DNA of 31,916 nucleotides from a virus. Under the pieces are notes generated by a model that saw nothing but the letters and a program-made list of their open reading frames with translations, did not search any database and had not been told where the DNA came from. A program made the translations under genes and the position numbers. The stretch is taken from positions 1-31,916 of IMG/VR virus record IMGVR_UViG_3300008952_001260. One strand, written 5' to 3'. Within the stretch, counting starts at the first letter, position 1. Each line of letters opens with the position of its first letter. Shown here one piece after another: positions 9,590 through 31,217 of this stretch.

Positions 9590-9991
9590 TTATTCTGTTA
9601 TTTCTTTCCAATTTGTTGTTGCTTCATCCCACTCATAATCTTTACCATCACCTGGGTTCTCATCAGTTGCATTTTCGTTTGGATGTGGTACAGGGCAAAT
9701 CCAAATGCACATTTCTTCATTTAAAGTCCAGCTAGGAAAAGGCTGTGGAGGAATAAAAGCATCTCTATCTTTATCATAAGTATACCCAATACCAGCAAAG
9801 TTCTTTCTTAATGCTACACCATCATCTTCTTCTAAGGTTATTGGATCATAATGTTTTCCTGCTTGTGTATTATAAGAGGTTTGAATCCATTTACTAGGAT
9901 CGCCCAAATTCCCACTATTAACATACTCTTGTTTAACAACAAGCACTTGGACTACTTCATTGTTTTCATTTATTTGTGCAAAATGTGGCAT
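9590..9991 (-). CDS. Conserved marine-phage protein of unknown function
   Basis: This 133-residue acidic protein begins MPHFAQINENNEVVQVLVV and includes 'WIQTSYNTQAGKHY' (near residues 36-49), 'RKNFAGIGYTYDKDRDAFIPP' split across 62-82, and a closing 'YEWDEATTNWKEI'. I recognise this layout as a small protein widespread in marine phages, often beside tail-fibre genes and without a proven role. A fibre-assembly or virion role is only suggested by location. The four bases between it and the upstream oxygenase mean its ribosome site (AAAGGAT) is formed by the last codons and stop of that gene, so translation is likely coupled. Confidence 0.65.
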   Translation of the reverse strand: MPHFAQINENNEVVQVLVVKQEYVNSGNLGDPSKWIQTSYNTQAGKHYDPITLEEDDGVALRKNFAGIGYTYDKDRDAFIPPQPFPSWTLNEEMCIWICPVPHPNENATDENPGDGKDYEWDEATTNWKEITE

Positions 9992-9995
9992 TCAA

Positions 9996-10616
9996 TTATC
10001 CTTTAGTAAAAAAATGGGCCATACAAAATCTACCCAATCCTTGATTTTTATATTTGTCTTGCATCCTTACTATATTTACTTCATGCAAATAATAACTTGG
10101 AAACATTATCATTCTATTATGACGACATTCAACGATTTGATTTGACTGATTAAATATTAAATCACCACCATCAAATCTTTTAGGTTCTCTATAAAACCAA
10201 ATCAAAACTGTATGCATGAACTGGTCAAAGTGTTCACCATACTTATCTGAATTTTCATAATAACTAATGACTGAACAATCTTGATTTGTTATTTCAAATG
10301 TTCTCCAAGATGGAGTTGTTTTTCTATATGCTTCTAAAACTTCCTCTGATAATATTTTTCTATATAATGTTAATATATTTGAATCTTCTCTATGAGAAAT
10401 ATATATATCATCTAAATAAAATCTTTTTAATTGAGCAACAGGTTTATTATTCTTATCACAAGCTACACCATAACCACCTGTTTTATAATCTATTTTAAAA
10501 TCATCTTTATATGAATCTAATTCTTTCCATATTAAATTTTGTTCTTTAATATCATAAAAATCATCAATCATCATATAAGGAAAAACTTTATCTTCTTTGC
10601 ATAATGTAAATTTCAT
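9996..10616 (-). CDS. 2OG-Fe(II) oxygenase, prolyl-4-hydroxylase-like
   Basis: This 206-residue protein fits the 2-oxoglutarate/Fe(II) dioxygenase fold. The metal triad is visible: H129 and D131 in 'GEHFDQF' and H178 in 'YYLHEV'. R196 in 'GLGRFCMAHFF' is placed to bind 2-oxoglutarate. 'RFDGGDLIF' between them matches the conserved Gly-Gly strand of prolyl-hydroxylase-like enzymes. The N-terminal 100 residues are charged and less conserved. The family hydroxylates protein side chains or small molecules, and the substrate here is unknown. Only three bases separate it from the stop of the glycine-rich protein upstream, and a second oxygenase lies on the other side of that protein. This suggests, but does not prove, a fibre protein as substrate. 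Confidence 0.8.
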   Translation of the reverse strand: MKFTLCKEDKVFPYMMIDDFYDIKEQNLIWKELDSYKDDFKIDYKTGGYGVACDKNNKPVAQLKRFYLDDIYISHREDSNILTLYRKILSEEVLEAYRKTTPSWRTFEITNQDCSVISYYENSDKYGEHFDQFMHTVLIWFYREPKRFDGGDLIFNQSNQIVECRHNRMIMFPSYYLHEVNIVRMQDKYKNQGLGRFCMAHFFTKG

Positions 10617-10619
10617 TTA

Positions 10620-11468
10620 TCATGGGGCAGGCTGTACCTGATTAATGTCATATCTAATTACTACAATTCCAGAACCACCTAAACCATTTGGATTTGAATG
10701 AGCAGCTCCACCACCACCTGTATTTACTTCACCATTACGAGAACTACCGCCACCACCACCGCCAACTCCACCTGCACCTACAGATGAACTATGAACACCA
10801 GTTGATCCTGCACCACCACCAGCATAAAATATTTCAGTTCCTGTTCTATAATCATTTCCTGCACCAGGTCCTGCTGTTGGTGTACCTCCAGCTCCACCGG
10901 CACCACCGCCACCTCCACTTGTACCACTACTCCAGGAATCTCGATCAGTTGAATTACCTCCATTAGATCCTTGACCAGATGTTCCTGATCCACCGCCAAG
11001 ACCTCCATGATTACCACAACCAGCTCCACCTCCACTTCCACCTGCTCCGCCAGCACCACCGTAACCAGAACCTCGGCCTCCACCGACTGATGCCGTATAA
11101 GTGAAGTTTGTAATAGAAGAAGCATCACCTGCAACACTTTGAGACGCACCACCTGCACCAATAGTAACAACCTTTACACCTTGTTGAATTAACTTTCCAG
11201 TTTCTACAACCATTCCGCCTGCACCACCAGCTCCAGAGTGAGTTCCACCTTCACCAAGACCAGATGTTGCACCAGCACCACCACCAGATATAACTAGTAT
11301 ATCAACTACACCATCAGGACTAATAACAGTAAAATCACCTGTTTCAATAAAGGTATGAGATTTATATACAATATTATTTTGTGTATAGGTTTGTTCAATG
11401 CCACCAGTTGCTTGAAATGTTCCCGGGCCTCGTCTTCCTACTAACTGTGGTGCTAAAATAAAACTCAT
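10620..11468 (-). CDS. Glycine-rich tail adhesin-like protein
   Basis: This 282-residue protein starts with about 60 ordinary residues, including 'YKSHTFIETGDFTV' and 'VDILVISGGGAGAT'. Residues 65-265 are dominated by runs such as 'GGAGGSGGGAGCGNHGG' and 'GGVGGGGGGSS'. It ends with a hydrophobic 'GIVVIRYDI' strand and a Pro-rich tail 'QVQPAP'. Glycine-rich domains of this kind are found in phage fibre proteins. In the T-even-type adhesin gp38 they form packed polyglycine II helices that present receptor-binding loops; similarity to gp38 here is by composition only. The start overlaps the upstream oxygenase stop by four bases (ATGA), and the downstream oxygenase follows after three bases, so all three are probably made in coordinated amounts. 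Confidence 0.7.
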   Translation of the reverse strand: MSFILAPQLVGRRGPGTFQATGGIEQTYTQNNIVYKSHTFIETGDFTVISPDGVVDILVISGGGAGATSGLGEGGTHSGAGGAGGMVVETGKLIQQGVKVVTIGAGGASQSVAGDASSITNFTYTASVGGGRGSGYGGAGGAGGSGGGAGCGNHGGLGGGSGTSGQGSNGGNSTDRDSWSSGTSGGGGGAGGAGGTPTAGPGAGNDYRTGTEIFYAGGGAGSTGVHSSSVGAGGVGGGGGGSSRNGEVNTGGGGAAHSNPNGLGGSGIVVIRYDINQVQPAP

Positions 11469-11983
11469 AATTCTTGTCCTATAAAATTAAAATTTATTAC
11501 AACTCTTTGGTTATTATCAGTACAACTAACTCCACAATGTTCAAGGTTAGTTGGAAAAACTACTAATCTATTTTCAACTGATTCAACTTTTTCTTTACTC
11601 TCTTTAAATATAGTATAACCGTTATTACTATTCACATAAAATATGGCTGTTTGAGTCTTGTTAGTTTCATAGTCTCTATGCCATCCAGCAATCATATCTT
11701 TTTCTGGAGCAACTGTTCTCAAGTTAGCCTTTGCTCTTATTAAAACACGACATTCTAATTTCTTAATAATTGGTTTTAAAATATTAAAATAATTACTTTC
11801 GTTATAACCACAACCATCAACTGTACTATAAAATATATGAGTAAATTGAAAATCATTTATACCTGAAACAGTATCAGAATCTATTGTCACATTATTAAAA
11901 AACCATGGGAAAGTCTTTCCCAACATAATCTCTTGTATAATATTCAGTTCATCATCATTAATTGCATTATCAATAACTTCCAT
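11465..11983 (-). CDS. 2OG-Fe(II) oxygenase family protein
   Basis: This 172-residue protein carries a 2-oxoglutarate/Fe(II) dioxygenase signature: H102 and D104 in 'GWHRDYE', H149 in 'NLEHCGV', and R160 in 'NQRVVINFNF'. The preceding 'NRLVVFPTNL' is the usual strand before the distal histidine. It is shorter than, and not obviously a duplicate of, the oxygenase at 9996-10616: the residues around the triad differ and the prolyl-hydroxylase-like Gly-Gly strand is absent. Its substrate is unknown. It begins 30 bases after the last propeller-like gene with a GGAAGGAA ribosome site. It ends in an ATGA overlap with the glycine-rich adhesin gene. Confidence 0.78.
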   Translation of the reverse strand: MEVIDNAINDDELNIIQEIMLGKTFPWFFNNVTIDSDTVSGINDFQFTHIFYSTVDGCGYNESNYFNILKPIIKKLECRVLIRAKANLRTVAPEKDMIAGWHRDYETNKTQTAIFYVNSNNGYTIFKESKEKVESVENRLVVFPTNLEHCGVSCTDNNQRVVINFNFIGQEL

Positions 11984-12013: not shown

Positions 12014-13177
12014 TTAGAATGTTGGTGGCACTTGACCATGCCCACCACCGCCTGCTGCTGATGTTAATGCAGTAAGCTGTGTTGCTGTTGTGTTAGAAGC
12101 ATAAGCAAATTCTTGTTTGTGAGCAACATAATTAACTGTATCATGGCCTCCAACAATTATTCCAGTAGTATTAGTTGATGCACCATAACCACCGACTACA
12201 TAAGTAGCTAAATCACCATGATCTGCTTGTGTTGCACCAGAGGCTAACTGGTATGAGTCAATTCTAGTATAGGTTACAGTATTACCTTGATTAGATGCTG
12301 AATTACCTCCAGCATTAAAACAAGTTGTATTATTACCAACAGTTATATGACCAGCACTAATCTCAGCCATACTATCTATATCTTCTCTAGTAGTATCATT
12401 AGCAAATGCAAATCGACAAACAGTTGCAACCGCTGTAACTACTGGATTATTACCACCACCAGATACTCCACCAAATGTATAACCATGAGTAGAATTTTGA
12501 TGTGTTCCCATGTTTGCTTTTGCTATTTCTAAACCTATTGTACTCCCTGAAGATGATCCAGTAGCAAAAGCAAATTTATGACCATTACTTGAATGTCCTG
12601 TAATATTGAATCCTGTTCCACCTAATACATAAGCGTCGGTTGATGAACTAATCCCACCTGCTACTGTTTTATGTTGACCTGTATCTCCAATATCAACTGC
12701 ATTACCTTGGCTTGAATATGAATATTTTTCAATAGTCGTTCTAAAAGTAGGTGATGAAGGAGTAACAGGATTAGGTATTGTACCAGTAGTATAAAAACCA
12801 TCAGTAGTAGAAGAATTAGAACAACCACTACTAGCTCCACCGGCACCACCATCTTCGCATGTACCCCAAACTGATTCAGTAGAACTTGCAAAAGCATAAT
12901 TAAAAATTTGATTTGTAGCAGCATTACCACGATTACCAGAAATTATAAATGCATCTCCAGGTCCACCGCCACCACCTGAACCACCACTACTTTGTCCCCA
13001 AGCAGGTAAACCACTTTCTAATTTTAACACTTCACCATCTGTACCTTTGGCAAGCTTAACATAATCTGTACCATCATAATATACAACATCTCCTGCTTCT
13101 GGTGTTCCTATTGACATCTTAGAGCCAGTTACAGAATTATCTTTTAGTATATCTGTTGTGATTTTTTGTATAGCCAT
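12014..13177 (-). CDS. Propeller-like fibre protein, paralogue C
   Basis: This 387-residue protein is the last of three tandem paralogues. Residues 1-62 form the shared head ('MAIQKITTDILKDN', 'GDVVYYDGTDYVKLAKG', 'GLPAWG'), and a Gly-Ser linker follows at 63-73. The rest contains six repeats marked by an aromatic-rich strand such as 'FNYAFAS', 'HKFAFAT', 'CRFAFAN' or 'QEFAYAS'. Each is paired with a Gly-Gly or His-Gly-Tyr element ('THGYTFGG', 'TGIIVGG'). This resembles kelch-type beta-propeller repeats, which often bind carbohydrate. The propeller reading is inference. The 5' end and ribosome site (AAGGATTACTA) are almost identical to those of paralogue B. A tail-fibre or receptor-binding role fits the neighbourhood. 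Confidence 0.7.
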   Translation of the reverse strand: MAIQKITTDILKDNSVTGSKMSIGTPEAGDVVYYDGTDYVKLAKGTDGEVLKLESGLPAWGQSSGGSGGGGGPGDAFIISGNRGNAATNQIFNYAFASSTESVWGTCEDGGAGGASSGCSNSSTTDGFYTTGTIPNPVTPSSPTFRTTIEKYSYSSQGNAVDIGDTGQHKTVAGGISSSTDAYVLGGTGFNITGHSSNGHKFAFATGSSSGSTIGLEIAKANMGTHQNSTHGYTFGGVSGGGNNPVVTAVATVCRFAFANDTTREDIDSMAEISAGHITVGNNTTCFNAGGNSASNQGNTVTYTRIDSYQLASGATQADHGDLATYVVGGYGASTNTTGIIVGGHDTVNYVAHKQEFAYASNTTATQLTALTSAAGGGGHGQVPPTF

Positions 13178-15631: not shown

Positions 15632-17203
15632 TTACTCAATTTCTGTTAAATTGATTTTATATTTTTTACCAGTAATATTATTTAATAGAAAAAGATTCTC
15701 ATCTCCTTCTTCAAATGTCCAAGAACCAGATGTTCCATCTACACTATTACCATTTCGGTGAGTATTATCTAAATGCAAATCACCTGTTTTTAAATCTTGA
15801 ACAACGATTGCAGTACCTTCTGCTTTGATAGTTGCATCATCACCCATGTAGAGTGTATTAGACCCAAGATACATATCTCTAATTTTAAATTCAGCTGAAC
15901 CTATATCATAAGTATCATGTTGTGATGGTAAAATATGATTAGTAAATTTATGACCATTAAAATCTAAAACACCACCGAGTTGCGGTGTCGTATCTTCTAG
16001 TAAACTACCAATACCATTTGTTATTACTAAATGTAAAACTTTAACTTTAGAACCATTACCGGGTGGTGAACTTGGAAAATCAATACTAGTTGTAGTTGGT
16101 AAAGTATATGAACCTGTAGGTTGTGCTACACCATCAACAAAAACTAATACTGCTTCTTTATCATTAGCTTCATTAGTAAGTGGTGAAAATGTAGTTGCTG
16201 TTCCATCACCAATAAAGTTATCTTCTATAATACTGGTGTTTACTCCCATATGTAACACTCTAATAGAATCACCAGTTGCAGGTGGTGCTGAAGTAATATC
16301 AATAGTAGTTGGTGTTGGTAAAGTATATGTTCCTGTTGGTTGTGCTACACCTTCAATAAAAACAAGTATTTTTTCTTCACTACTAGCTGAAATACTTAAA
16401 GTAAATGTTGTGGTTGTTCCATCACCTGTGAAAACATCTTCCACATATGTAGAATTACCACCACCACCTCCTGTACTTGCAGCCCATTCAGGAGCAGTAG
16501 CACCACCATTCATTGTTAATACTTGACCAGCTGTACCCTTTCCCAACCGAACATAATCCGTTCCATTGTAATAAAGCGTATCACCAGCTGCATCACCACC
16601 CATTGCGATATGTGTTCCATTAACTTCATTAGTTGCGATGTCTTGTGCAACAATAACACCCGGTGCAATCATTGCTGATGTAATTGCATTATCAGGAATT
16701 TGAATATTTCCTACGGTACCTGTAACATCACCACCAACAGGTTCAGCAGAAATATCAGGAGTAGGTACAGTTCCAAAAGATATAACACCTGCACCATTTG
16801 TTTTTAAGAATTGGCCATTATTACCGTCATTCAGATTTAACTCAGTAATGCCAATCGTATTAGCATTAATCTGCGCATTGGCAACAGTACCCGACAAATC
16901 TCCACCGACAGGTTCAGCAGAAACATCAATAGTTGAAAATGTAAGACCATTCATATTATCAACTGATAATACTTGTCCTGCTGAAGGTGGTGTAATTTGA
17001 TCTACTTTTAATTGTGGAATACCTACAGCATTATTAACATTTGTCATATCCTCTTTTGCTAGAGGATGTCCACCAGCTGTCGCCTTGTCATGTACGACAA
17101 CTGTATCCTTATCAGTATCAACTGTTATCTCACCGGTCTCCCCGACAAAAATACTGTGATTAGATGTTGTACCTCTTCTTATTTGTACTAGTTTAGCGGG
17201 CAT
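15632..17203 (-). CDS. Tail fibre with Mtd-type N-terminus and duplicated beta modules
   Basis: This 523-residue protein opens with 'LVQIRRGTTSNHSIFVGETG' and 'DTVVVHDKATAGGHPLAKED'. That is the N-terminal attachment domain first known from the Bordetella phage major tropism determinant. Residues 98-145 and 155-200 hold 'GGD.(S/T)GTV.N' shaft repeats. Residues 200-242 contain 'GDTLYYNGTDYVRLGKGTAG', the same cassette that heads the propeller proteins. Residues 253-320 and 326-393 are a duplicated beta module ('VFVDGVAQPTGSYTLP'). The C-terminus has 'TTPQLGG', 'HDTYDIGSAEFKIRDMYLGS' and 'TGKKYKINLTEIE'. Unlike the two fibres upstream it lacks their common 120-residue C-terminal domain. A late promoter octamer sits 23 bases before the ATG. 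Confidence 0.75.
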   Translation of the reverse strand: MPAKLVQIRRGTTSNHSIFVGETGEITVDTDKDTVVVHDKATAGGHPLAKEDMTNVNNAVGIPQLKVDQITPPSAGQVLSVDNMNGLTFSTIDVSAEPVGGDLSGTVANAQINANTIGITELNLNDGNNGQFLKTNGAGVISFGTVPTPDISAEPVGGDVTGTVGNIQIPDNAITSAMIAPGVIVAQDIATNEVNGTHIAMGGDAAGDTLYYNGTDYVRLGKGTAGQVLTMNGGATAPEWAASTGGGGGNSTYVEDVFTGDGTTTTFTLSISASSEEKILVFIEGVAQPTGTYTLPTPTTIDITSAPPATGDSIRVLHMGVNTSIIEDNFIGDGTATTFSPLTNEANDKEAVLVFVDGVAQPTGSYTLPTTTSIDFPSSPPGNGSKVKVLHLVITNGIGSLLEDTTPQLGGVLDFNGHKFTNHILPSQHDTYDIGSAEFKIRDMYLGSNTLYMGDDATIKAEGTAIVVQDLKTGDLHLDNTHRNGNSVDGTSGSWTFEEGDENLFLLNNITGKKYKINLTEIE

Positions 17204-17225
17204 AATCTTTAACCTTATTTTTTAT

Positions 17226-17233
17226 TATTTATA
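17226..17233 (-). promoter_or_regulatory. Putative T4-type late promoter (TATAAATA)
   Basis: The coding strand reads TATAAATA, overlapping the stop codon of the 345-residue fibre. It is 23 bases upstream of the next ATG at 17203. With initiation a few bases after the octamer, the leader would be about 15 bases and still include the TAAGGT ribosome site. The position fits a T4 late promoter that restarts transcription of the fibre cluster. Confidence 0.55.
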
Positions 17234-18266
17234 CGCGACATCTTAAAGTAAATCGTAATCCTTGACCAGCAGTACCTGTACCAATCTGCGTTACTTTAAA
17301 TGTTATCCTATCACCAGAAACAAATGAAGCAAGATTAGAATCTATCGTACCACTTGATAATGATTGAACATCTTGTGCAAAGAATGGTTTATTAACACCA
17401 GTATATATTGATACTCCATTTTTTTCTATATCACAAATAACAGGTTGTGTTGTAGCTACAACATCAAGAAATCCTGCTTCACCTTCAATAGTACCTGAAC
17501 GAGCCATAACCAAGTGTCCATAAGTACCAACTTCCAAATCTTCTGCTACTAAACTTGTATCATATCCTCCAACAAATCCAAGATCGTATGGAAGATGTGT
17601 AACAGCTGCACCATTGAGTGCTGGCAAAGTAGTTCCTGATAATTTACTTGCATCCATTCCAATAATCTTTTCATCTGTTATAGTAGCATCTGATATTTTT
17701 ATATTGGTAATAGAATTAGCTGCAATCTTAGAAGCTGTTACTGCATTAGCTGCTATCTCTAATGAACCAACCGAATTAGCAACAATTTGTGCGTTATTAA
17801 TTGTACCAGATAAATCTCCACCTAATGCATATTCAGTTAATAAATCTCTGAATACAAGTGTACCACTACCATTAGTTGTAAGAACACTATTTGCAGTAGA
17901 ATCAACAACATTAAGTTCTGCAACATTAATTGTATTTGCAGCTATCTGTGCATTAGCAACAGTACCAGTTAAATCACCACCGACTGAAAATGCAGCGGCA
18001 GTCTGATCTATAAAACTTAATGTACCATTTCCATCCGTAGATAATACTTGTCCACTTGTTCCATCTGCAAAACTTAACTGTGCAATACCAATAGTATTAG
18101 CAACATTAGACATATCTTCTCTTGCCAACGGAAAACCACCAGCCGTTGAACCGTCATGGACAACAACAGTATCTTTAGCGGTATCAACCGTTGTTTCACC
18201 TAAAGCTCCGGTAAATGCGTTGTGATCTACCGTTGAACCTCGTCTTAGTTGTACTTGCTTAGCCAT
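17229..18266 (-). CDS. Tail fibre with Mtd-type N-terminus and shared C-terminal domain
   Basis: This 345-residue protein has an Mtd-type attachment domain at residues 1-50 ('QVQLRRGSTVDHNAFTGALG', 'VVVHDGSTAGGFPLARED'). The shaft spans roughly 60-205, with 'SVGGDLTGTVANAQI' and 'ALGGDLSGTINNAQI' repeats and short decapeptide units ('EIAANAVTAS', 'KIAANSITNI', 'KISDATITDE'). The linker 'MDASKLSGT' leads to a C-terminal domain at 227-345. That domain ('YDLGFVGGYD', 'EDLEVGTYGHLVMAR', 'DIEKNGVSIY', 'SGDRITFKVTQIG', 'GLRFTLR') closely matches the next fibre upstream. I infer a trimeric fibre with the C-terminal domain as tip. It is 14 bases from the upstream paralogue and starts after AAGGA. Confidence 0.77.
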   Translation of the reverse strand: MAKQVQLRRGSTVDHNAFTGALGETTVDTAKDTVVVHDGSTAGGFPLAREDMSNVANTIGIAQLSFADGTSGQVLSTDGNGTLSFIDQTAAAFSVGGDLTGTVANAQIAANTINVAELNVVDSTANSVLTTNGSGTLVFRDLLTEYALGGDLSGTINNAQIVANSVGSLEIAANAVTASKIAANSITNIKISDATITDEKIIGMDASKLSGTTLPALNGAAVTHLPYDLGFVGGYDTSLVAEDLEVGTYGHLVMARSGTIEGEAGFLDVVATTQPVICDIEKNGVSIYTGVNKPFFAQDVQSLSSGTIDSNLASFVSGDRITFKVTQIGTGTAGQGLRFTLRCRV

Positions 18267-18280
18267 ATTATTTTCCTTGT

Positions 18281-19372
18281 CTATACTCTAGTCTTTAACA
18301 AAAATCTTAAACCTGCACCAATATTACCAGCCGTTGAACCAATAGCTGTTACTTTAAAAGTTATTCGATCACCAGAACTAAATGACAGTTGACCACTATC
18401 CAATACGCCTGCTGTCATATTATTACTATCTATAACAAATTGTGGTTTGGTTGCATATATCGTAGTACCATTTTTTTCTATGTCAATAACAACAGCAGCT
18501 CCAAGAGCAACAGTCTCAAGGTGTCCTACTTCTCCATCAAATACACCATTTCTTCCCATAATAAGAACACCATAAGTACCAACTTCTAAATCTTCTAGTG
18601 CTAAGTCTGCATCATAACCAGCATTAAATGCCATATCATAATGAAGGCCTGTAAGACTTGAACCATCAATAGCAGGTAAAGCACCAGTTAATTTACTTGA
18701 AGCCATACCATTAATTTTAACATCAGTTATTGCATCATCAGCAACCTTAGTTGTTGTTACATTTAAATCTGCGATCTTGGCTGTTGTAATATTATTATCA
18801 GCGATCTTGGCTGTTGTTACATTTAAATCTGTAATCTTATCTGTGGTTACTGAATTGCTAGCTAGTTTAGTTTCAGTTACATTTGCGTCAACAATGTTTA
18901 TTGTGGTAACTGCATTAGTTGCTAAGTTTGCAGCCGTAACAGAAGTATTAGCAAGTTTTATATTTGTAACTGCTCCATCAGCTAACTCAGTTGTACCAAC
19001 TACATTGGCAACGATTTGTGCATTACTAACAGTACCAGATAAATCACCACCCATTGCTAGAGATGGAATTGTTGGTTGACTTGTAAAACTAAAATTTCCA
19101 TTACCATCTGTTTGTAATACTTCACCAGCATTACCATCTGAAAAGTTTAATTGTGCAATACCAATAGAGCCAGCAACATTAGACATATCAGCTCTTGCCA
19201 ACGGATACCCAGTTGGAAGATTTACATCAAGAGTAGCCCTACCATCAAGGTCTGTTCCATCATGGACTCTAATAGTTTTATCTGTAAGGTCAACAGTTAT
19301 TTCACCTTCCTCACCAGGAAAGTTTTTATGTTGGTCTGTGGTACCTCTTCTTATCTGAACAATTTTAGCCAT
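18281..19372 (-). CDS. Tail fibre with Mtd-type N-terminus, decapeptide shaft and shared C-terminal domain
   Basis: This 363-residue protein starts 'MAKIVQIRRGTTDQHKNFPG' with an Mtd-type attachment domain interrupted by about nine extra residues ('DGRATLDVN') compared with its paralogues. Residues 106-128 hold a 'GGDLSGTVSNAQIVANVVG' shaft element. Residues 129-228 are about ten consecutive ten-residue repeats of the type 'KIADLNVTTA'. Residues 244-363 are the C-terminal domain shared with the 345-residue fibre ('EDLEVGTYGVLIMGR', 'DIEKNGTTIY', 'SGDRITFKVTAIG'). Its ATG overlaps the stop of the upstream 68-residue gene by eight bases, with AGGA as ribosome site inside that gene. This suggests coupled translation. 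Confidence 0.77.
   Translation of the reverse strand: MAKIVQIRRGTTDQHKNFPGEEGEITVDLTDKTIRVHDGTDLDGRATLDVNLPTGYPLARADMSNVAGSIGIAQLNFSDGNAGEVLQTDGNGNFSFTSQPTIPSLAMGGDLSGTVSNAQIVANVVGTTELADGAVTNIKLANTSVTAANLATNAVTTINIVDANVTETKLASNSVTTDKITDLNVTTAKIADNNITTAKIADLNVTTTKVADDAITDVKINGMASSKLTGALPAIDGSSLTGLHYDMAFNAGYDADLALEDLEVGTYGVLIMGRNGVFDGEVGHLETVALGAAVVIDIEKNGTTIYATKPQFVIDSNNMTAGVLDSGQLSFSSGDRITFKVTAIGSTAGNIGAGLRFLLKTRV
18689..18988 (-). repeat. 30-base tandem repeat encoding a decapeptide fibre shaft
   Basis: About ten consecutive units of 30 bases lie in frame in the 363-residue fibre. Each encodes ten residues of pattern (K/N)-(I/L)-x-(D/N/S)-x-x-(V/I)-T-x-x. The three units near 18750-18840 are nearly identical at the DNA level, with a shared 'gcgatcttggctgttgt' core on the plus strand, whereas outer units have diverged. 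This suggests recent expansion of the shaft by slippage or unequal recombination. The regular spacing of hydrophobic residues suggests a beta-structured trimeric shaft. Confidence 0.7.
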
Positions 19373-19572: not shown

Positions 19573-22500
19573 TTAAGCCAATGCGATTGCCCTTAAATCT
19601 TTTATTAATGGGACTCTGGTTGTTTCACTTGATGGTGCTGTCATAACAATTTTAACTGCAAATATCTTAAAATTTTCATATATAACAGAATTTTGTGTAT
19701 ATGTTATATTTCCATCATTTGTATTAGGAACAAACTCAAGTTCTAAATATTCACTCTCATCATCTGATATAGATTTACTATTTACATTAGAAGCTTCTTT
19801 CATCAAAGTCCAAGCCTTGTTATCAAACAAATCACTATCAAACTGTGATAATACTTTATAGTAAACAGCAATCTTAGAATTACCTTGTCTATTAGCTGTC
19901 AAGAATACTTGCAAGCTTGTTGCATCAAACCCATCTTTCAACGTAACCCTTCTTGTAATATACCTAGCTGTTGCATCACCACCTGATAGAATACCATCAG
20001 TATCTGCTGTATCATTAATAATATTTTGAATAGTAATAACACTATTCCTAGCTGTATCAATAACTGGACTAATATATTTACTTGATGAAGAAAGTGTAGC
20101 TCTCGATTCAAAAGAGCCTTGTGTAGATCCCTCAACTTCTTTTCTTGAATCTAATATAAAATTAGTATTCTGAATAAGAGGACGATACTCAACATCAAAA
20201 CTATCATCACCTTCATCTTTCATTTTAACGCCCCACTTAATATTAGTTTTATTAATTCTAATTTCTTGTGGAACAAGTTGAATAAGATCAGCCTTAGCAT
20301 CATAAGAGACACCTGCAAAATCTCTGAATACAGCATTACCATCAGTATTAGTAACAAACTCTGCTATATTAATATTGAATGATAAATCTTGATTTTGTTC
20401 TGGTGTCCACGTTGAAGCATTCTGTGATTTAAAGAATACACCAGCATAAGGTTGCTCAGATATTTTTCTATCTGTGCCAACAATATTCTCACCCATCTCT
20501 GCAATATAAGTTTCATATTTCAAACTATTACTAATTACAACTATTGAATACTCACCAGGTTGTAAATAAACTAATGATGGAAATGCAAACTTTGTAGCTA
20601 CACTTGCATCTTCACTTACAGTAATATCAGCAGGGAATTTTGTAACATTAGAGAATGGAACAATCGTCTGTGCAGGATAACCATTCAATGTATCTCTGAT
20701 TTGTAATGTAACAGGAATACCATCTTCATCTTTCGTCTTGAAGAATAATTCAACATCTGTTAGAAATACTCCATCTGGATATAATGCAGGATCAACCAAG
20801 AATGTTTCTGCAAGAGGATCAACCCATCCAACTGTATTAACACGATTGAATGTATTTGTAGTTGTTCTAAACTCTGTAGCACTACCCTGTGCAAATGTTT
20901 GGATTGTTGGAACCCTTGTAGATAGAACAACATTCTCTCTTGTTTGTAGTAGGCCTTGTGCTTGATAAACAACTTCAGCATAAGTACCAGCTGTAATCAA
21001 ATCACCAACTTGGTTATCTGTTAATAAGAATTGTCTTTCACCAGTTCTAAATCTCAATGTATCACTATTAGGAATACTAAAAGTTAAGTTACTAATAGAA
21101 CCAGCATCATCTGTAAAAATAGCACCACCTAAAGTTCCACCATTAGGAGTACAATAAACATTAACATCTTCACCATCAAAACGTGCATACACTCTTGTAT
21201 TAGGTTTCATGCCTGTTACATCAACAGTAATATCTCTAGCACGAATAAATGGTATAACAGAAACATCAACCACTCTATCACCAATGCTATTTCTTACAGT
21301 ATCAACACCAGTAATCTCATTACGAATACCAGTTCTTGTTTGTGTTACTTCACGTTCAACTGTCTGATTAACTTGAATAGCATTTCCACGTCGGAAAGAA
21401 CCACTTTGAGCAACTACTCTTTCTCGGCCTGTACCAAGTGTTTGCCAATCATTAAATTGTGTACCAAACGCTAAACCAACTAAACTTGACCATGCATCAT
21501 TCTCACCTTGAAGATTGACAACAACTTCTGGATTTGTTGATGTATCAATCCAGTTATCATTAGGTGGTGTTAGATCAACAGTACCAACCCATGCTAATAC
21601 TGCAAATGGATTTATGTTTACTGCTTTACTTGCAATAGGTTGTTTAATAAATGGTATAGTATTATATGGTAATGTAATACAATCACCAGTTTTTGCAACA
21701 CCCGTTGATGCTTCTTCTTTATATTCAACATCTACAATATTAGAAGAAAATCTTGGTCTTAAAATCTTATCATCAAAGTCTATTGAACATTGATAGTCTG
21801 GATTTAAAACATTACCAACACTATGGCCATTAAATCCATCAACCAATATTCCATTCTTAAATCTATCTAATCCAGCAGTATCTTTAATATCTAATGCTTC
21901 TGCATCTTTTTCCAACAATGATAGTGAAGTGTAATACTCAACATTAGAAATTCTTTTTTCTAGTTTACCAATATCTCTCATTGTATATCTTTTATTTTCG
22001 ATATACTCTGCTCTAATATCTTTTGCATTAAATGTATAAGCTGGAATATTAAGAGTATAGAGATTCATTGTACCATCAAGTGTAGCAGGCGGTGTTGCTG
22101 TTAAAGAAGAAACACCCGTATTATCACCAAATTTTCTTTCTTTACTTAAATAGATTGTATCTACTCTTGGAAGGTAATAACTATAATCCGAAGTGAAATC
22201 TTCATTTGGCACTGGTAACTCAATATTTTCTATTGTTGTACCACCATCTACTCGTCTTGGTCTAAAGTCAATACAATCTCTAAGTTCTAATTCATCACCT
22301 GATACTGGACTTGTAAATGCTGGAATGTCAGCAAAGCTTACTGAACCAGTATAAGAATCAACAGATAAATAACCATTACCAGTATGTGTAAAATAATCAA
22401 AGACAGCAGAGATTTGTCCGGTTGGTGCTGTTTGTCCTGACTTTAATTTAACTCCACCATGATCGTAAATATTATCTCTCTGTCCATTATCCAACATATA

Positions 22501-25263
22501 TCTTGATGTAACATCTGTACTACCAGCATTAACACCAGAAACAACTTTAGTAAATCCAGTAGTTGCACCTGTAACATTTTCAGAAGAAACAAATGTTCCA
22601 GATACAGGAACATAAGTTACTGATGTTGTACCAGAATCACCTACAATAACTAATCCCTTTGCACCAGATGTTTGACCAGTAATAGTTTCACCACGCTGTA
22701 ATGATTGAGCAGTGCTTGCAACAGTAAGTGTAGGTAATGTAGGTGCAGTATTAATATCCCCAGAATCATAAACTGCACGAAGCTTCCAAATATCTGAAAA
22801 TCCCAAACCATCCCAAACACTATCAGAGGTAGCTGGTGTAGCAAAAGTTTTTACTTCACTAGCTACTAATGACTTTACTCTTTCTTGTTTACTACTAACA
22901 TTTAATGTTGCAATAATTTCTGCTTTGAATGTTCCACCTGTACCAGTTACGCCTGTATTAAAAGTTGCACTTGTACCTGTATTTGAAATAACAATAGTAC
23001 CACCTTGGTCGAAGCGAACAATAGAACCTGCTGCAAGACCTGAACTTTCAGGATCCTTAACAACAACTAAATAATTTTCTCTTGCATTACTATCAGATAA
23101 TGTTGAACCCGTACCAATAAATTTTTCAGATGAACCAGCACTTGATATAGCACCAGTACCACCACTAAATTGAACGCCAAGTCCTCCGCCATTGAAAACT
23201 CTTTTAATTGGATAGCCTGTATCTATAACATCATTCAACCCACGAATAGATTTAATAACATCTTGGGGATATTTAAAAACAAGACTATTAAAATTAGATT
23301 CATTTAATACTGTATCTTTAGAAGGATCAGTACCACCAACTTTACCAGTAACATCAATCTCTGCACTTGCTCTTAATGCAACAGGAGTTGCAGTTGCATC
23401 AACTGGAATAACAACAGACTCAATATTCTCAAACTTATCAGATGTCAGTTGCACATCATAAATATATAAATTAAATATTCTATTTGCACCACTAGTAGAA
23501 GAAGAAAAATCAATACTTCTTACTTTAGCTGTTCCTATCTTCTTATCTGCATAAGTTGTTGGATTAGTTAAAACAGGATTAGCAATGCTATGTAAATCAA
23601 CTTCTTGATGTTCACTAATATTAAACAGGCCAACAAGATTTTTTACAATAACATAATTTCCAAATTGCATTAACCGACTAAAACCATTAACATTAACAAT
23701 TTCTCTAGCTTTATCTAATTCTAAATCTTGAGATACTAATGTCTCAAATTCAAAACCTTCAATAAATGCTTTCCCGGGATCAAGTCGTACAATAAATTTT
23801 TCTTCATTTGTAGGATGATCTCTTAATTGTATATTAAATGATCTTACTGTATAGCTACCAGACTCATCAAAAGTTCGTCTTGCAAAAGTTTCTTCCAATA
23901 CAGAATAGATAGGAACTTTAATATCTTTTTCTTTAACACCTTTATTAACTCGGAGTAGTTCATAGAAATCTACATCATCTTGTGAGTCAAGTGTTTTCTT
24001 TGTAAGTGTTAGTGAAAATTTCAAACGATCTGCACCAGGTGCGGCAAAGTTTGAAGAACCCTGTGCATTATCAAGTAATGATATATCACCACCAGCATTA
24101 ACTACTGTCTCAGTAACAGTCAATCCAATCTTATAAGAAGGATTGTCAAAATATTTATCCAGTATTAATGTTTGTGCAGGTACTTTAATAAAGTTACCAT
24201 TGATATAAAATACACCTTCTGATATTGATGTAGAACTACCTGTTCCAACAGCTGTAGAAAGAACACTCTCACCAGTTGCATTAACACCACCAGCTGGAGC
24301 AGCTGCAATCGTTACAGTTGGTGTGGCTCCACCAGAAGAAGTGCTATAACCTGCACCTTGATTGACAACAGTTATTTCTGTAACAACTCCATTTGTAATA
24401 GTAGCAAGTGCTGTTGCGTTTGTACCACTACTAGGTGCATTTGCAATCGTAATTGCTGGAGGTTCAGTATATCCAGCACCACCATTAGTAATTGTAATAG
24501 AACGAATACTGGTAGGCTCAGCATCAACAATTTCTGCTGAGATACTACGATCTGTAGCATACAATCTTTCACCAGCTAGAAAGGCAGGAGATGTTTCTAA
24601 TGTACCTTGAGCAGTTGCACCAGAACCAGTACCACCTGTTAGTTGAACAGTAACAATAGGTTTGCCATCAGAATCAGTAGCATTTGAAGCGTAACCTGAT
24701 CCACGATTTATAATATCAACACCAATAACAACACCACCACTAATGATTGCCTCAGCTTCTACTCCTGTACCACCACCTGCTACAGCTACTGCCGGTGCTA
24801 CTGTATATCCACTTCCTTGATTTATTACTCTAATGCCCTGTACTTTATCTGTCTGTGAACCACCCGTGATGTATTTTACAAATAATGTATCAGGATCCCC
24901 AGTTGTACTATCTACTGCCGAAGTACCAAGAACCAGAGCTTTGGAACCGGTCTGTGTTCCAACGATTGTCTTTCCTACAAAATTAGCTACATTAATATCA
25001 ACACCATTATATTGTGGTTTGAGTTTAATGTATTCATAATCCAAATTTAAAACAAGTTCACCACCAGATACTTTACTTCCATTTTTAAAAACATGATCTC
25101 CAAATTTCTTTACTTGATCTCGGAGTATGCTTTGTTGAGTAGTTAGCTCTCTAGCTTGTACTGGAAGCGATGGCTTATATAGGACTTGATGATAATTTTT
25201 ATCATCATCAAAGTCGTCAAAATAAGGACTCTGGTTTGTATTGATTGTAATATTATTCGACAT
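19573..25263 (-). CDS. Large baseplate/tail structural protein (DUF4815-like)
   Basis: This 1896-residue protein is the largest complete gene in the window. Its N-terminus ('SPYFDDFDDDKNYHQVLYKP', 'PVQARELTTQQSIL', 'FGDHVFKNGSKVSGGE') matches the start of very large structural proteins of marine T4-like phages. I recall these as carrying the uncharacterised domain DUF4815. Residues 141-340 hold four 'NQGSGYT'-type beta repeats. Further on, 'GETITGQTSGAKGLVIVGD' recurs as a short beta element. The middle third is less repetitive and includes 'LRDCIDFRPRRVDGGT' and a charged helical stretch 'YTMRDIGKLEKRISNVEYY'. The C-terminus ends 'RVPLIKDLRAIALA'. It follows gp8, where T4 has gp9/gp10, so it may replace the baseplate-periphery and fibre-attachment proteins. 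That is inference from synteny. Confidence 0.75.
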   Translation of the reverse strand: MSNNITINTNQSPYFDDFDDDKNYHQVLYKPSLPVQARELTTQQSILRDQVKKFGDHVFKNGSKVSGGELVLNLDYEYIKLKPQYNGVDINVANFVGKTIVGTQTGSKALVLGTSAVDSTTGDPDTLFVKYITGGSQTDKVQGIRVINQGSGYTVAPAVAVAGGGTGVEAEAIISGGVVIGVDIINRGSGYASNATDSDGKPIVTVQLTGGTGSGATAQGTLETSPAFLAGERLYATDRSISAEIVDAEPTSIRSITITNGGAGYTEPPAITIANAPSSGTNATALATITNGVVTEITVVNQGAGYSTSSGGATPTVTIAAAPAGGVNATGESVLSTAVGTGSSTSISEGVFYINGNFIKVPAQTLILDKYFDNPSYKIGLTVTETVVNAGGDISLLDNAQGSSNFAAPGADRLKFSLTLTKKTLDSQDDVDFYELLRVNKGVKEKDIKVPIYSVLEETFARRTFDESGSYTVRSFNIQLRDHPTNEEKFIVRLDPGKAFIEGFEFETLVSQDLELDKAREIVNVNGFSRLMQFGNYVIVKNLVGLFNISEHQEVDLHSIANPVLTNPTTYADKKIGTAKVRSIDFSSSTSGANRIFNLYIYDVQLTSDKFENIESVVIPVDATATPVALRASAEIDVTGKVGGTDPSKDTVLNESNFNSLVFKYPQDVIKSIRGLNDVIDTGYPIKRVFNGGGLGVQFSGGTGAISSAGSSEKFIGTGSTLSDSNARENYLVVVKDPESSGLAAGSIVRFDQGGTIVISNTGTSATFNTGVTGTGGTFKAEIIATLNVSSKQERVKSLVASEVKTFATPATSDSVWDGLGFSDIWKLRAVYDSGDINTAPTLPTLTVASTAQSLQRGETITGQTSGAKGLVIVGDSGTTSVTYVPVSGTFVSSENVTGATTGFTKVVSGVNAGSTDVTSRYMLDNGQRDNIYDHGGVKLKSGQTAPTGQISAVFDYFTHTGNGYLSVDSYTGSVSFADIPAFTSPVSGDELELRDCIDFRPRRVDGGTTIENIELPVPNEDFTSDYSYYLPRVDTIYLSKERKFGDNTGVSSLTATPPATLDGTMNLYTLNIPAYTFNAKDIRAEYIENKRYTMRDIGKLEKRISNVEYYTSLSLLEKDAEALDIKDTAGLDRFKNGILVDGFNGHSVGNVLNPDYQCSIDFDDKILRPRFSSNIVDVEYKEEASTGVAKTGDCITLPYNTIPFIKQPIASKAVNINPFAVLAWVGTVDLTPPNDNWIDTSTNPEVVVNLQGENDAWSSLVGLAFGTQFNDWQTLGTGRERVVAQSGSFRRGNAIQVNQTVEREVTQTRTGIRNEITGVDTVRNSIGDRVVDVSVIPFIRARDITVDVTGMKPNTRVYARFDGEDVNVYCTPNGGTLGGAIFTDDAGSISNLTFSIPNSDTLRFRTGERQFLLTDNQVGDLITAGTYAEVVYQAQGLLQTRENVVLSTRVPTIQTFAQGSATEFRTTTNTFNRVNTVGWVDPLAETFLVDPALYPDGVFLTDVELFFKTKDEDGIPVTLQIRDTLNGYPAQTIVPFSNVTKFPADITVSEDASVATKFAFPSLVYLQPGEYSIVVISNSLKYETYIAEMGENIVGTDRKISEQPYAGVFFKSQNASTWTPEQNQDLSFNINIAEFVTNTDGNAVFRDFAGVSYDAKADLIQLVPQEIRINKTNIKWGVKMKDEGDDSFDVEYRPLIQNTNFILDSRKEVEGSTQGSFESRATLSSSSKYISPVIDTARNSVITIQNIINDTADTDGILSGGDATARYITRRVTLKDGFDATSLQVFLTANRQGNSKIAVYYKVLSQFDSDLFDNKAWTLMKEASNVNSKSISDDESEYLELEFVPNTNDGNITYTQNSVIYENFKIFAVKIVMTAPSSETTRVPLIKDLRAIALA
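24244..24843 (-). repeat. Four Gly-Tyr beta repeats in the 1896-residue protein
   Basis: Four units of about 45-60 residues are marked by 'RVINQGSGYTVAP', 'DIINRGSGYASN', 'TITNGGAGYTEPP' and 'TVVNQGAGYSTS', each followed by an 'A.ATITNG'-like strand. Similar units occur in the gp7-position protein and in the gp8 insertion. Confidence 0.7.
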
Positions 25264-25275
25264 AGTAAGGCCTTT

Positions 25276-26763
25276 TTAAAATTCAACTACAAGTTTAACA
25301 TCTTCAGTAGAATCAGTTGATCTATGAATAGGAGGTCGATACTCTGTGTATAACATAATTCCAGTATCTTCCGTGATTTCATTTTTAGCATATGTATCAG
25401 CAGTAGCAAGAGTATTTTGCAAAGTTTTTGGATTAACCAATACATGAACCTTTCTGAAATCTTCATCAATAGGTAAATCAGTATTAGCAGCTCCTCTTAG
25501 ACGAGCATTCATCATAACAAATGCTCCACCCAATTCTCCAACTGGATCGCTACCATGACCACCTTTAGGATTTATAACAACTTTTAATATAGCACCAGCA
25601 CCAGAACCACTAGTTACTTCTGCTGTAGCTTGACGATAACCTGTTCCCTGATTTGGTGTTCTATTAACAATAGTAATTTCTTCAATAGCTCCTGTTCCAT
25701 CAGTCTGTCGTGAAACTCTTGCAGTTATTCCAGAACCACCACCAGATTGTCCACCACTAGTACCATCAATAGTAACGGCTGGTCGTACTTCATAAACACT
25801 TGCTGTTGTTGGTAGATTATTAACATCCCAAGCAGGTGATACTGTTGCCAATCTATCAACGGCAATATAATCTGTAACAGTTGTAAACTGTCCTGCACCT
25901 GGCCCACTTGTAATGTAGATTGTCATATCTTTATAATAATCATCAGTTGTTCCATCTGCTACTTGTGTAGTATTATTATTTGGATCAGCTGCGTTTTGTA
26001 AAGATATTTTATCTGGATTGTTAGCTGCAACATCTGATACTGGTTGACCAACAGTTGATCTATAACCTGTACCACCAGCAGTAACCTTAATATAATCTAT
26101 TGAACCATCTATAGCATTTTGTTGAACATCCCATTGCTTTGTTCCATCATCAGCTGTTAAGGTCTTGGTTGGAATCCAATCAGCTGTAACATATTTCAAA
26201 ACATCTGCTTGCTGGACTTCAAACATAAACTTCCATACATATCCATCTGCATCTGTCTTGGTCAATCCTTCACTATTACCTGTTGGTTTTACAGTAGAAG
26301 CTGCACCATTATTATTACTGATACACTTATATACTCTAAATTCATCAGTAAAAACATAAAATGGTGTTTCGGACACACTATTAGCAGGATTAATATTATC
26401 AATAATATCATCCCTATCATGGCTGTATTCACGATATATAGTACCACTTGTCCAATCATATCTAGCAATAACATGAGAAACATCAGTTATTCGTTTAATA
26501 GCACGGATGTCGTCCCAATGAAAAGCAGAGGCTTGAGTCGTATCAACTGGCAATGGAATATTAATATCACTTGCTGGATTGCCATCTGTTACTCTAAACT
26601 CAGCAAGGTTATCCGCAGTAGTGCCACTCCAAGCATCAGTCTTACCAAAAGCTAGATAAATGTTATTTTTTCTGGTATTAGTACCAGATACGGTCTCAGT
26701 AAAACTCTCAATGAAGTTATCTGCCTGAAACTTTCTGAAACTATTATTGATTATTGCACTCAT
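25276..26763 (-). CDS. 8: Baseplate wedge protein gp8 homologue with an internal insertion
   Basis: This 495-residue protein aligns by eye with T4 gp8 at both ends. The N-terminal part has 'NNIYLAFGKTDAWSG' and 'RVYKCISNN', then 'DADGYVWKFMFEV', matching the T4 'DGYVWEYLFEI' region. The C-terminus 'GIMLYTEYRPPI' plus 'TEDVKLVVEF' corresponds to T4 'GEMIYMENRPPI' and 'TEEINILFTF'. T4 gp8 has 334 residues. The surplus lies mostly at residues 220-395, which contain 'GGTGYRS' and 'NQGTGYRQATAEV' beta repeats and Gly-rich loops. gp8 is a dimeric part of the baseplate wedge that contacts gp6 and gp7 in T4. The gene follows a late promoter octamer 37 bases upstream. Confidence 0.85.
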   Translation of the reverse strand: MSAIINNSFRKFQADNFIESFTETVSGTNTRKNNIYLAFGKTDAWSGTTADNLAEFRVTDGNPASDINIPLPVDTTQASAFHWDDIRAIKRITDVSHVIARYDWTSGTIYREYSHDRDDIIDNINPANSVSETPFYVFTDEFRVYKCISNNNGAASTVKPTGNSEGLTKTDADGYVWKFMFEVQQADVLKYVTADWIPTKTLTADDGTKQWDVQQNAIDGSIDYIKVTAGGTGYRSTVGQPVSDVAANNPDKISLQNAADPNNNTTQVADGTTDDYYKDMTIYITSGPGAGQFTTVTDYIAVDRLATVSPAWDVNNLPTTASVYEVRPAVTIDGTSGGQSGGGSGITARVSRQTDGTGAIEEITIVNRTPNQGTGYRQATAEVTSGSGAGAILKVVINPKGGHGSDPVGELGGAFVMMNARLRGAANTDLPIDEDFRKVHVLVNPKTLQNTLATADTYAKNEITEDTGIMLYTEYRPPIHRSTDSTEDVKLVVEF

Positions 26764-26799
26764 GTTATAATTCCTTTTTAGATTGATTTATACTTGCTA

Positions 26800-26807
26800 T
26801 ATTTATA
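26800..26807 (-). promoter_or_regulatory. Putative T4-type late promoter (TATAAATA)
   Basis: TATAAATA lies on the coding strand within the 67-base gap between the gp7-position gene and gp8, 37 bases upstream of the gp8 ATG. The spacing and the presence of a real intergenic gap make this one of the better candidates for a gp55-dependent late promoter. Confidence 0.6.
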
Positions 26808-26830
26808 ATACTTTTTAAAGAATTTTAAAA

Positions 26831-29386: not shown

Positions 29387-29387
29387 A

Positions 29388-31217
29388 TTAGATTAATGTT
29401 TCTGCTACCATGTTAATTGTTATTGATGTTGCTTCTGCTGAGTCATAAGTTAAAATCTGTTCTCTCAATGGTGTTATATCACTATTATTAATTTCTGGTG
29501 TTACAGTAAATTTTACATGATTACTTCCGTCAACAATAGATACCGGAGTAAATTTATTTACAACAACTTTTCCAGTATCATAATCTATTGTTCCATGATT
29601 AGTAGAACCGTCAGCTTGTATTAAAAACTGTCTAGGCTCGGTAATTACAGTATCGACACATCTAGCTGCCATAACATTTCCTTTACTATCATCAACAAAA
29701 CAATATGTATTACCATCTGTTCCAGTAAAGGTAGTAGAATGAACACTTCCCTTTTCTAACTGATTAGTAAAATACATAGTAAAATTCTCTGGAACATTTA
29801 GAGCTGTTGGTATCATTCGCTGTTGATATTTTACCAATGTTTTATTATTTCTAATAGAGTTATTAGTATTATCAATAGCTTGTACTAATTTTGAATGACG
29901 AAATTTCTGATCGAATTTTTCCAGATTTGTTTGAACATAACTTTTTATAGCTGTATCAATATTTGTCTTTAGTGTATTCTCGTCTGTTAAATTTTTAATT
30001 GGATCATAATTTATAGTAGATTCAATAACAAGATAAAAGAAAATAGGATCGACAATAACTGGCTCAACTGTTACAACATTTACATTTTTTAGTATATCTC
30101 TTTTAATAGATTCTTTAGCATTCTCATTTAAAAAATTATTTCCAAATATCTTAACTGCAACAAATACTCTACCATACTGGACTGTATCTGCATCCTCACC
30201 ACCATATACTTTTACTGATTCTATATCAGGACGCTGTTCCAATAAAAGAGCTTGATAGTCAAACTTTGTTGTAGCTCTTCTTTGTGCTTGATAAAGTTTT
30301 GGTGCTTGGAAACGTAATGATTCTATACTCTGAATCTCGGCCCCACCTGTTGCAACTTCAGTTGTAGTCAATACATATCGTTCAGAAGATAAACCAGCAA
30401 CACTACCAACAGCAGTAAATGCAGCTGCAAAATTAGCAGCAGCTCCTTTTGTTACAACATATTCAACAAAAATAACATTACCATCTGACAATGCACTACC
30501 TATCGTTCCATCACCAAAAGAAATTTCATATAATTCATCTTCTACTTCTTTAGTAAAATAAACTTTATCTGTTCCCTTGATAGTTGTAACATCTACTGCA
30601 TTACCATCTGTGTATGTAAAGACCTCAGTATCACTAACAGATTTTTGAACTTTTACAGAAAGAGTGCTAAGATCAACATTTCTATTTGGAATAACAAATC
30701 TTTGTGTGGTATCAACTGCATTAACTACAAAAGCTTTATTTAAAATTTGACCTTCTACAATTTCTAAATCAGTAATAGAATATGTACCCGTAACAGAACG
30801 TGGAATAGCCGTAGTTGTATTTGTCGTAAATGTATAAGATACACCATCAATACTTGTACTGAATTTAGTATCTTTTTCTATGGTTAAAGAAAGTGGAGTT
30901 CCTACTGGTGTGAACGTCATACTAATTTTAGCCTTTGCAGCTTTCTTAGATGTGCTATGTACGTTGAGATGTTGAGAATGTGATACAACTGATTCTCTTA
31001 GTGAGGAAGAATCCAAGAACATTTCGTTACCAAGCATATTAGCATAATAACTCATATAATGTGTATTATAAGCAAGCAAATCTAATAATACTGCCATACC
31101 ACTACCTTCAAAATCATAATCTTGAAATTCCACTTGGCCCTTCAAATATCCAACTAAGTTTGATTTAATAGTATCAAATTCTAATTCTGTTATTTCTAAT
31201 TTATTTGAACTTGGCAT
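29388..31217 (-). CDS. 6: Baseplate wedge protein gp6
   Basis: This 609-residue protein is close in length to T4 gp6 (660). It has the characteristic N-terminus of the family: 'LEITELEFDTIKSNLVGYLK', 'FQDYDFEGSGMAVLLDLLAY', 'NTHYMSYYANMLGNEMFLDS' and 'SSLRESVVSHS'. The middle part contains 'ESLRFQAPKLYQAQRRATTK', 'DYQALLLEQRPDIESVKVYG' and 'RVFVAVKI', typical of baseplate_J-type wedge proteins. In T4, gp6 dimers join neighbouring wedges and form the inner ring of the baseplate. The ATG shares its A with the gp25 stop (TAATG), and the downstream gene starts one base after its own stop, so the three are likely co-translated. Confidence 0.88.
   Translation of the reverse strand: MPSSNKLEITELEFDTIKSNLVGYLKGQVEFQDYDFEGSGMAVLLDLLAYNTHYMSYYANMLGNEMFLDSSSLRESVVSHSQHLNVHSTSKKAAKAKISMTFTPVGTPLSLTIEKDTKFSTSIDGVSYTFTTNTTTAIPRSVTGTYSITDLEIVEGQILNKAFVVNAVDTTQRFVIPNRNVDLSTLSVKVQKSVSDTEVFTYTDGNAVDVTTIKGTDKVYFTKEVEDELYEISFGDGTIGSALSDGNVIFVEYVVTKGAAANFAAAFTAVGSVAGLSSERYVLTTTEVATGGAEIQSIESLRFQAPKLYQAQRRATTKFDYQALLLEQRPDIESVKVYGGEDADTVQYGRVFVAVKIFGNNFLNENAKESIKRDILKNVNVVTVEPVIVDPIFFYLVIESTINYDPIKNLTDENTLKTNIDTAIKSYVQTNLEKFDQKFRHSKLVQAIDNTNNSIRNNKTLVKYQQRMIPTALNVPENFTMYFTNQLEKGSVHSTTFTGTDGNTYCFVDDSKGNVMAARCVDTVITEPRQFLIQADGSTNHGTIDYDTGKVVVNKFTPVSIVDGSNHVKFTVTPEINNSDITPLREQILTYDSAEATSITINMVAETLI

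Follow-up and report, generated by a model that had tools for sequence, protein, structure and literature searches.

In marine T4-like phages, cultivated isolates included, the linkage of Fe(II)/2-oxoglutarate (2OG) oxygenase genes to fiber tips is a recurrent feature. Within the window (the whole 31.9-kb virus fragment analyzed here, which comes from a T4-like marine phage and carries its baseplate and fiber block), two such enzymes, OXA and OXB, flank a glycine-rich protein, GLY, and are followed by a small protein, d133. The interpretation that we favor, at a probability of roughly 40%, is that these genes constitute a fiber-tip module whose enzymes hydroxylate the phage's own fiber or adhesin proteins. 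In this model, GLY would be the receptor-binding glycine-rich tip and d133 its companion. OXA and OXB would be produced together with GLY through translational coupling and would hydroxylate side chains of fiber/adhesin proteins before virion assembly, with GLY as the first candidate, and the modification would alter the stability of the tip or its receptor contacts. Both the fiber protein as substrate and the residue that is modified are presumptive.

Few genes are as common in marine phages, yet as poorly explained, as those for 2OG-Fe(II) oxygenases, to which a role in host metabolism is usually assigned. Their reproducible association with receptor-binding fiber tips points to a concrete class of substrates, which can be tested in cultivated phages with virions accessible to analysis. 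If the model is correct, these phages would encode a post-translational modification of their own adhesin, which would bear on host range and on the prediction of phage-host binding from sequence. What is new is the module and the use proposed for it, its parts being known already. No report of 2OG oxygenases linked to glycine-rich fiber tips was found in the open-license literature, most subscription papers lying outside this search.

Organization of the fiber block

The baseplate block, followed by a 1,896-aa structural protein, a 68-aa virion protein, and the fiber/adhesin genes, all lie on the minus strand, and the series of fiber/adhesin genes houses OXA, GLY, OXB, and d133. The features, from the baseplate genes downstream, are as follows.

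19573..31627, minus strand: T4-like baseplate block, with the 1,896-aa structural protein and then gp8-, gp7-, gp6-, and gp25-like genes in coordinate order
15632..19372, minus strand: fiber genes h523 and i345 (both with a major-tropism-determinant N-terminal domain) and j363
12014..13177, minus strand: e387, adhesin-like gene upstream of OXA, missing from the same place in the related contigs L002 and L021
11465..11983, minus strand: OXA, 172-aa Fe(II)/2OG oxygenase of family phrog_274 (H102, D104, H149, R160)
10620..11468, minus strand: GLY, 282-aa glycine-rich fiber tip, a TNF-like part plus a glycine-rich bundle (by Pfam and predicted fold)
10692..11216, minus strand: glycine-rich part of GLY, a divergence island (by nucleotide identity to the closest relative)
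9996..10616, minus strand: OXB, 206-aa Fe(II)/2OG oxygenase with a predicted prolyl-hydroxylase-type fold (H129, D131, H178, R196)
9590..9991, minus strand: d133, 133 aa, phrog_7759, a possible fiber chaperone or accessory protein

On the coding strand, OXA and GLY overlap by the 4 bp ATGA (11465-11468), a 3-bp gap (10617-10619) separates GLY from OXB, and OXA starts 30 bp past e387. A preliminary description had given the order OXA, GLY, OXB inside a block of adhesins. Its order, coordinates, residues, and junctions were all verified, and the cassette does lie downstream of the gp25-, gp6-, gp7-, and gp8-like baseplate genes. Translational coupling through ATGA, the spacing of 30 bp from the adhesin upstream, and the protein-hydroxylase folds of OXB described below were counted in favor of fiber hydroxylation. 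The T4 late-promoter motif TATAAATA occurs in the window at a count not above chance.

Two remotely related oxygenases

Both proteins contain the HxD...H metal triad and the following Arg/Lys for 2-oxoglutarate, and these residues are conserved across their families, as the preliminary description had supposed. Across 16 sequences for OXA, H102, D104, and H149 never vary and R160 is retained in at least 90%. Across 47 sequences for OXB, H129 and D131 never vary and H178 is retained in at least 90%; at least one relative has K in place of R196. OXB scores above the gathering cut-off of 27 bits for Pfam 2OG-FeII_Oxy_3 (PF13640) at 32.5 bits. OXA, at 23.9 bits, falls slightly under it, and 12 of 16 members of its family match PF13640 at E <= 0.01. 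That the two are not recent copies of each other was also upheld, in that a profile comparison aligns just 31 columns; they are only distantly related. Relative to the 93% relative, dN/dS is 0.26 for OXA, 0.34 for GLY, and 0.43 for OXB, and all three genes are thus under purifying selection in this comparison.

Public annotation would suggest a quite different function for OXA, since phrog_274 and many public records name its family "DNA endonuclease V." A role in DNA repair of this kind is very improbable. The family has an invariant HxD...H and matches 2OG oxygenase models. Apart from a few weak matches, its 16 members hit only 2OG families at E <= 0.01, and no hit is to the pyrimidine-dimer glycosylase family expected of a T4 endonuclease V (denV). 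The identification was consequently rejected; "DNA endonuclease V" is a misnomer, and the profile matches assign the phrog_274 family to the 2OG oxygenases. Public names also differ in cultivated phage P-RSM1, where a relative of OXA (L322:8664-9161) is called "tail fiber protein," which is contradicted by its match to a 2OG profile, and the glycine-rich gene is called "tail fiber assembly."

An AlphaFold2 model of OXB (pLDDT 93.3, from a 47-sequence alignment) predicts a double-stranded beta-helix fold, with Z >= 8 to 815 of 1000 aligned chains. The nearest solved folds are PHD2, Tpa1, PKHD hydroxylase, the P4H of P. putida (whose structure was determined with EF-Tu), and the PBCV-1 collagen hydroxylase, all at Z 15-16. 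However, two enzymes of metabolite pathways, PolD and PasI, score as high as these protein hydroxylases, and the fold therefore favors a protein substrate without demonstrating one. No relative of OXB was confirmed among 84,980 bacterial and archaeal species genomes.

The glycine-rich tip

GLY matches Pfam Gly_rich_2 at 47.6 bits, above the cut-off of 24.3. Its model (pLDDT 88.6, from a 35-sequence alignment) predicts a TNF-like part plus a glycine-rich bundle, and the best fold matches are the fiber of cyanophage Pam3 and the Bxb1 tail tip, both at Z 13.9 over 176-177 residues; the next match, the glycine-rich domain of ALK/LTK, is far lower. The glycine-rich part of the gene has 68-83% nucleotide identity to the 93% relative, whereas the flanking enzyme genes have 90-100%. 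Given this fold match and the island of divergence, the assignment of GLY as a putative adhesin tip is well supported. Such a sharp island (10692-11216), confined to the glycine-rich part of GLY, is a pattern expected of tip exchange by recombination.

Conservation of the gene arrangement

The preliminary description had proposed a search for the same gene order in related phages. The OXA-GLY-OXB triad is kept in two related contigs, L002 (OXA 93% identical) and L021 (OXA 67%), despite different upstream adhesins: L002 has the same genes but lacks three upstream adhesins, and in L021 OXA directly follows a different fiber gene. Elsewhere, GLY-OXB-d133 is found without OXA (L058-L061, with OXB 61-63% identical; L247, 64%; L003-L005, 53%), or OXB lies apart from GLY-d133 (L006-L009). 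In the more distant L010, L064-L068, L069, L073, and L097, arrays of oxygenases follow d133 and GLY. In two loci (L069:7026-13700 and L303, downstream of 8618), ~6-10 adjoining, mutually divergent 2OG oxygenases lie after one glycine-rich fiber gene.

Similar arrangements are present in cultivated phages. In S-SM1 and S-RSM4, GLY, d133, and oxygenases run in one direction; in HTVC008M, GLY-d133 faces a convergent set of four oxygenases; and in P-RSM1, a relative of OXA lies two genes before GLY, with its start overlapping the gene upstream. In the Synechococcus phage S-SM1, for which a virion proteome has been published (PMC3037559), GLY corresponds to SSM1_049, d133 to SSM1_050, and the oxygenases to SSM1_051 to 054 and 056; in the Pelagibacter phage HTVC008M, GLY corresponds to I899_gp065. 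Correlations among the distances of OXB, GLY, and a core structural gene gave no significant result in seven lineages. That OXB distances do not track the core gene is consistent with a self-moving module, seven lineages being few.

The small gene d133 adjoins the glycine-rich fiber gene in 69 of 112 loci that were fetched through GLY, blind to oxygenases. Its family, phrog_7759, has a strong match in 5 of 22 complete records, and in all five it lies <= 1.3 kb from an oxygenase (P < 1e-3), although S-SM1, S-SSM5, and P-RSM4 are close relatives among these genomes, and the effective number is therefore smaller. No chain was matched when d133 was compared by sequence with solved structures. The protein may be a companion of GLY, perhaps its chaperone. 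The three-gene cassette first described is real as an order, but the unit is wider: d133 belongs to it, and in other loci it is joined by flavin halogenases and as many as ~10 oxygenases.

Linkage of oxygenases to fiber genes

Three sets of sequences bear on whether this proximity exceeds chance. In the first, a DNA motif for the glycine-rich protein was used to collect viral loci irrespective of their oxygenase content, and 112 were confirmed. An oxygenase is present in 11 of these, ~90% having none, and half of the oxygenase genes (11 of 22) lie within two genes downstream of GLY on the same strand (3.9 expected, P 5e-5). In loci fetched through the neighboring structural gene, oxygenases are present in 5 of 15 with GLY versus 2 of 19 without it, which is the same direction but not significant (P 0.11). 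In complete marine phage genomes with GLY, an oxygenase lies <= 3 kb away in 9 of 15, cultivated phages S-SM1, S-RSM4, P-RSM1, and HTVC008M among them, compared with 3.3 expected by rotation (P 0.001), a test that retains the oxygenases' own clustering. This set takes in a few Gly_rich_2 matches under the curated cut-off, and its counts are not fully independent because S-SM1, S-SSM5, and P-RSM4 are close relatives. Furthermore, the complete records were found through their oxygenases, and thus the rotation test concerns position rather than presence.

The relation between GLY and the oxygenases is facultative in both directions. Complete records of marine T4-like phages each have 4 to 13 2OG oxygenase Pfam matches, all over the genome, and both oxygenase families also occur near psbA/hli, tail completion, mazG, or gp5 genes in other phages. 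In ACG-2014h, oxygenases follow fiber genes that have no Gly_rich_2 match; thus, the link may be to the fiber block (its 3' end) generally rather than to GLY. It had been suggested at the outset that a lack of conserved co-occurrence would speak against the proposal; instead, the order is kept in relatives, and oxygenases lie significantly near both glycine-rich genes and d133.

These numbers also bear on the possibility that the oxygenases are auxiliary metabolic genes of a general kind, or mobile cargo, gathering in a hyperplastic fiber region, with functions in 2-oxoglutarate/nitrogen control or, together with ferrochelatase, in iron metabolism. Their genome-wide abundance is in keeping with this idea. 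Both nitrogen signaling (PMC3037559) and a partnership with ferrochelatase (PMC9599517) have been proposed, and annotated ferrochelatase genes are present in oxygenase clusters beside glycine-rich fiber genes in HTVC008M (L321:6809-9682), S-SM1 (L341), and S-SSM5 (L344). However, the rotation tests place oxygenases near GLY and d133 above chance, and neither the ATGA coupling nor the persistence of the triad amid changing adhesins is expected of random cargo. We consider this explanation unlikely.

Is GLY the substrate?

For fiber hydroxylation as such, the intact 2OG enzymes (by residues and profiles), the fiber-tip fold of GLY, the persistent order, and the significant proximity all argue in its favor. 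The more specific suggestion that GLY is hydroxylated, for example at Pro, Asn, Asp, or Lys, did not fare as well, in that most GLY genes have no oxygenase nearby, the oxygenase families also occur away from fibers, and no target residue was found that discriminates the linked proteins. An apparent enrichment of proline in oxygenase-linked GLY (5.4% versus 2.5%, P 8e-5) was attributed to lineage and rejected: T4-like GLY proteins without oxygenases reach 4.5% (P 0.89). The GLY core of the window has 2.3%. A search column by column for a target residue gave a best raw P of 5e-5 over 191 tests, with no near-universal column in the linked GLY proteins, and is confounded by lineage.

Small molecules and tailoring islands

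Another possibility is that the substrate is a small molecule or a glycan. In concert with halogenases, carbamoyltransferases, methyltransferases, and sulfotransferases, the oxygenases would build or modify a sugar, a secondary metabolite, or the surface of the host, with exclusion of superinfecting phages as one conceivable purpose, and they would travel with the fiber block because both concern the host surface. Related clusters do contain a flavin halogenase (9 of 91 neighbors), carbamoyltransferase, O-methyltransferase, sulfotransferase, and epimerase genes; the S-SSM6a cluster has been proposed to serve secondary metabolite or capsule decoration (PMC7824862); and the closeness of PolD and PasI to OXB fits as well. 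However, the window has two oxygenases only and no identified tailoring partner, and the closest lineages keep just GLY, OXB, and d133 (with or without OXA) between fiber genes, although the enzymes could still act with those of the host. This explanation is quite possible but, on balance, doubtful.

Flavin-dependent (tryptophan-type) halogenases lie among 2OG oxygenases after GLY and d133 in several loci (L010:6186-7730, L047:5213-6730, L049, L051, L073:6142-7686, L106:2518-4068, and L153:8775-9935). We know of no natural substrate for viral halogenases, and fiber proteins are a candidate. A broader version of the fiber-hydroxylation model would then be that marine T4-like phages carry adhesin-tailoring islands, in which batteries of 2OG hydroxylases, some with flavin halogenases, decorate the adjoining glycine-rich tip and other adhesins, the window being a minimal two-enzyme version. 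This generalization is speculative and rather doubtful; if true, it would extend the chemistry of receptor contact beyond the 20 amino acids.

Comparison with known systems

Among characterized enzymes, the peptidyl prolyl hydroxylases (PHD2/EGLN, Tpa1, P. putida P4H, and PBCV-1 vCPH) share with OXB the predicted fold (over 155-183 residues) as well as the metal and co-substrate residues. OXB is just 12-17% identical to them, however, and likeness of fold says nothing of substrate. In the viral collagen hydroxylation systems of PBCV-1 and mimivirus, the substrate has regular proline-containing Gly-X-Y repeats. GLY lacks such repeats, having 8 Pro among its 282 residues and Gly runs of no regular pattern.

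Marine cyanophages encode several families of 2OG-Fe(II) oxygenases (T4-GC 100, 104, 240, 412, and 611; phrog_274 and phrog_81), which include OXA and OXB; T4-GC 100 and 611 of S-SM1 are their relatives. The literature consulted treats these genes as metabolic or DNA-repair genes rather than as fiber-linked. Phage 2OG oxygenases have been discussed as metabolic genes (PMC3037559, PMC9602691), and their resemblance in structure to the prolyl hydroxylase EGLN3 has already been reported (PMC12774648). The halogenase/oxygenase/carbamoyltransferase cluster of jumbo cyanophage S-SSM6a (PMC7824862) resembles that of the relatives L010, L047, and L073, which likewise pair 2OG oxygenases with tailoring enzymes. 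That cluster was assigned to a metabolite or polysaccharide, and in the window neither a halogenase nor a carbamoyltransferase was identified.

By Pfam and predicted fold, GLY is a glycine-rich tip of the Pam3 gp24/S16 gp38 type. Its closest parallel is the tail fiber gp24 of Pam3 with the chaperone gp25 (PDB 7ypx, 7yfw; PMC9608196); gp24 and the GLY model share the TNF-like and glycine-rich tip. The Pam3 domain joins a TNF-like part to glycine-rich motifs, the outer loops of which have been proposed to contact the receptor, and gp25, the partner protein of the fiber, is its chaperone (PMC9608196). The Pam3 fiber has a small dedicated partner, and d133 is in a like position near GLY, although it matches no solved chain by sequence. 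The passages on gp24 describe no oxygenase (PMC9608196), whereas GLY is flanked by two.
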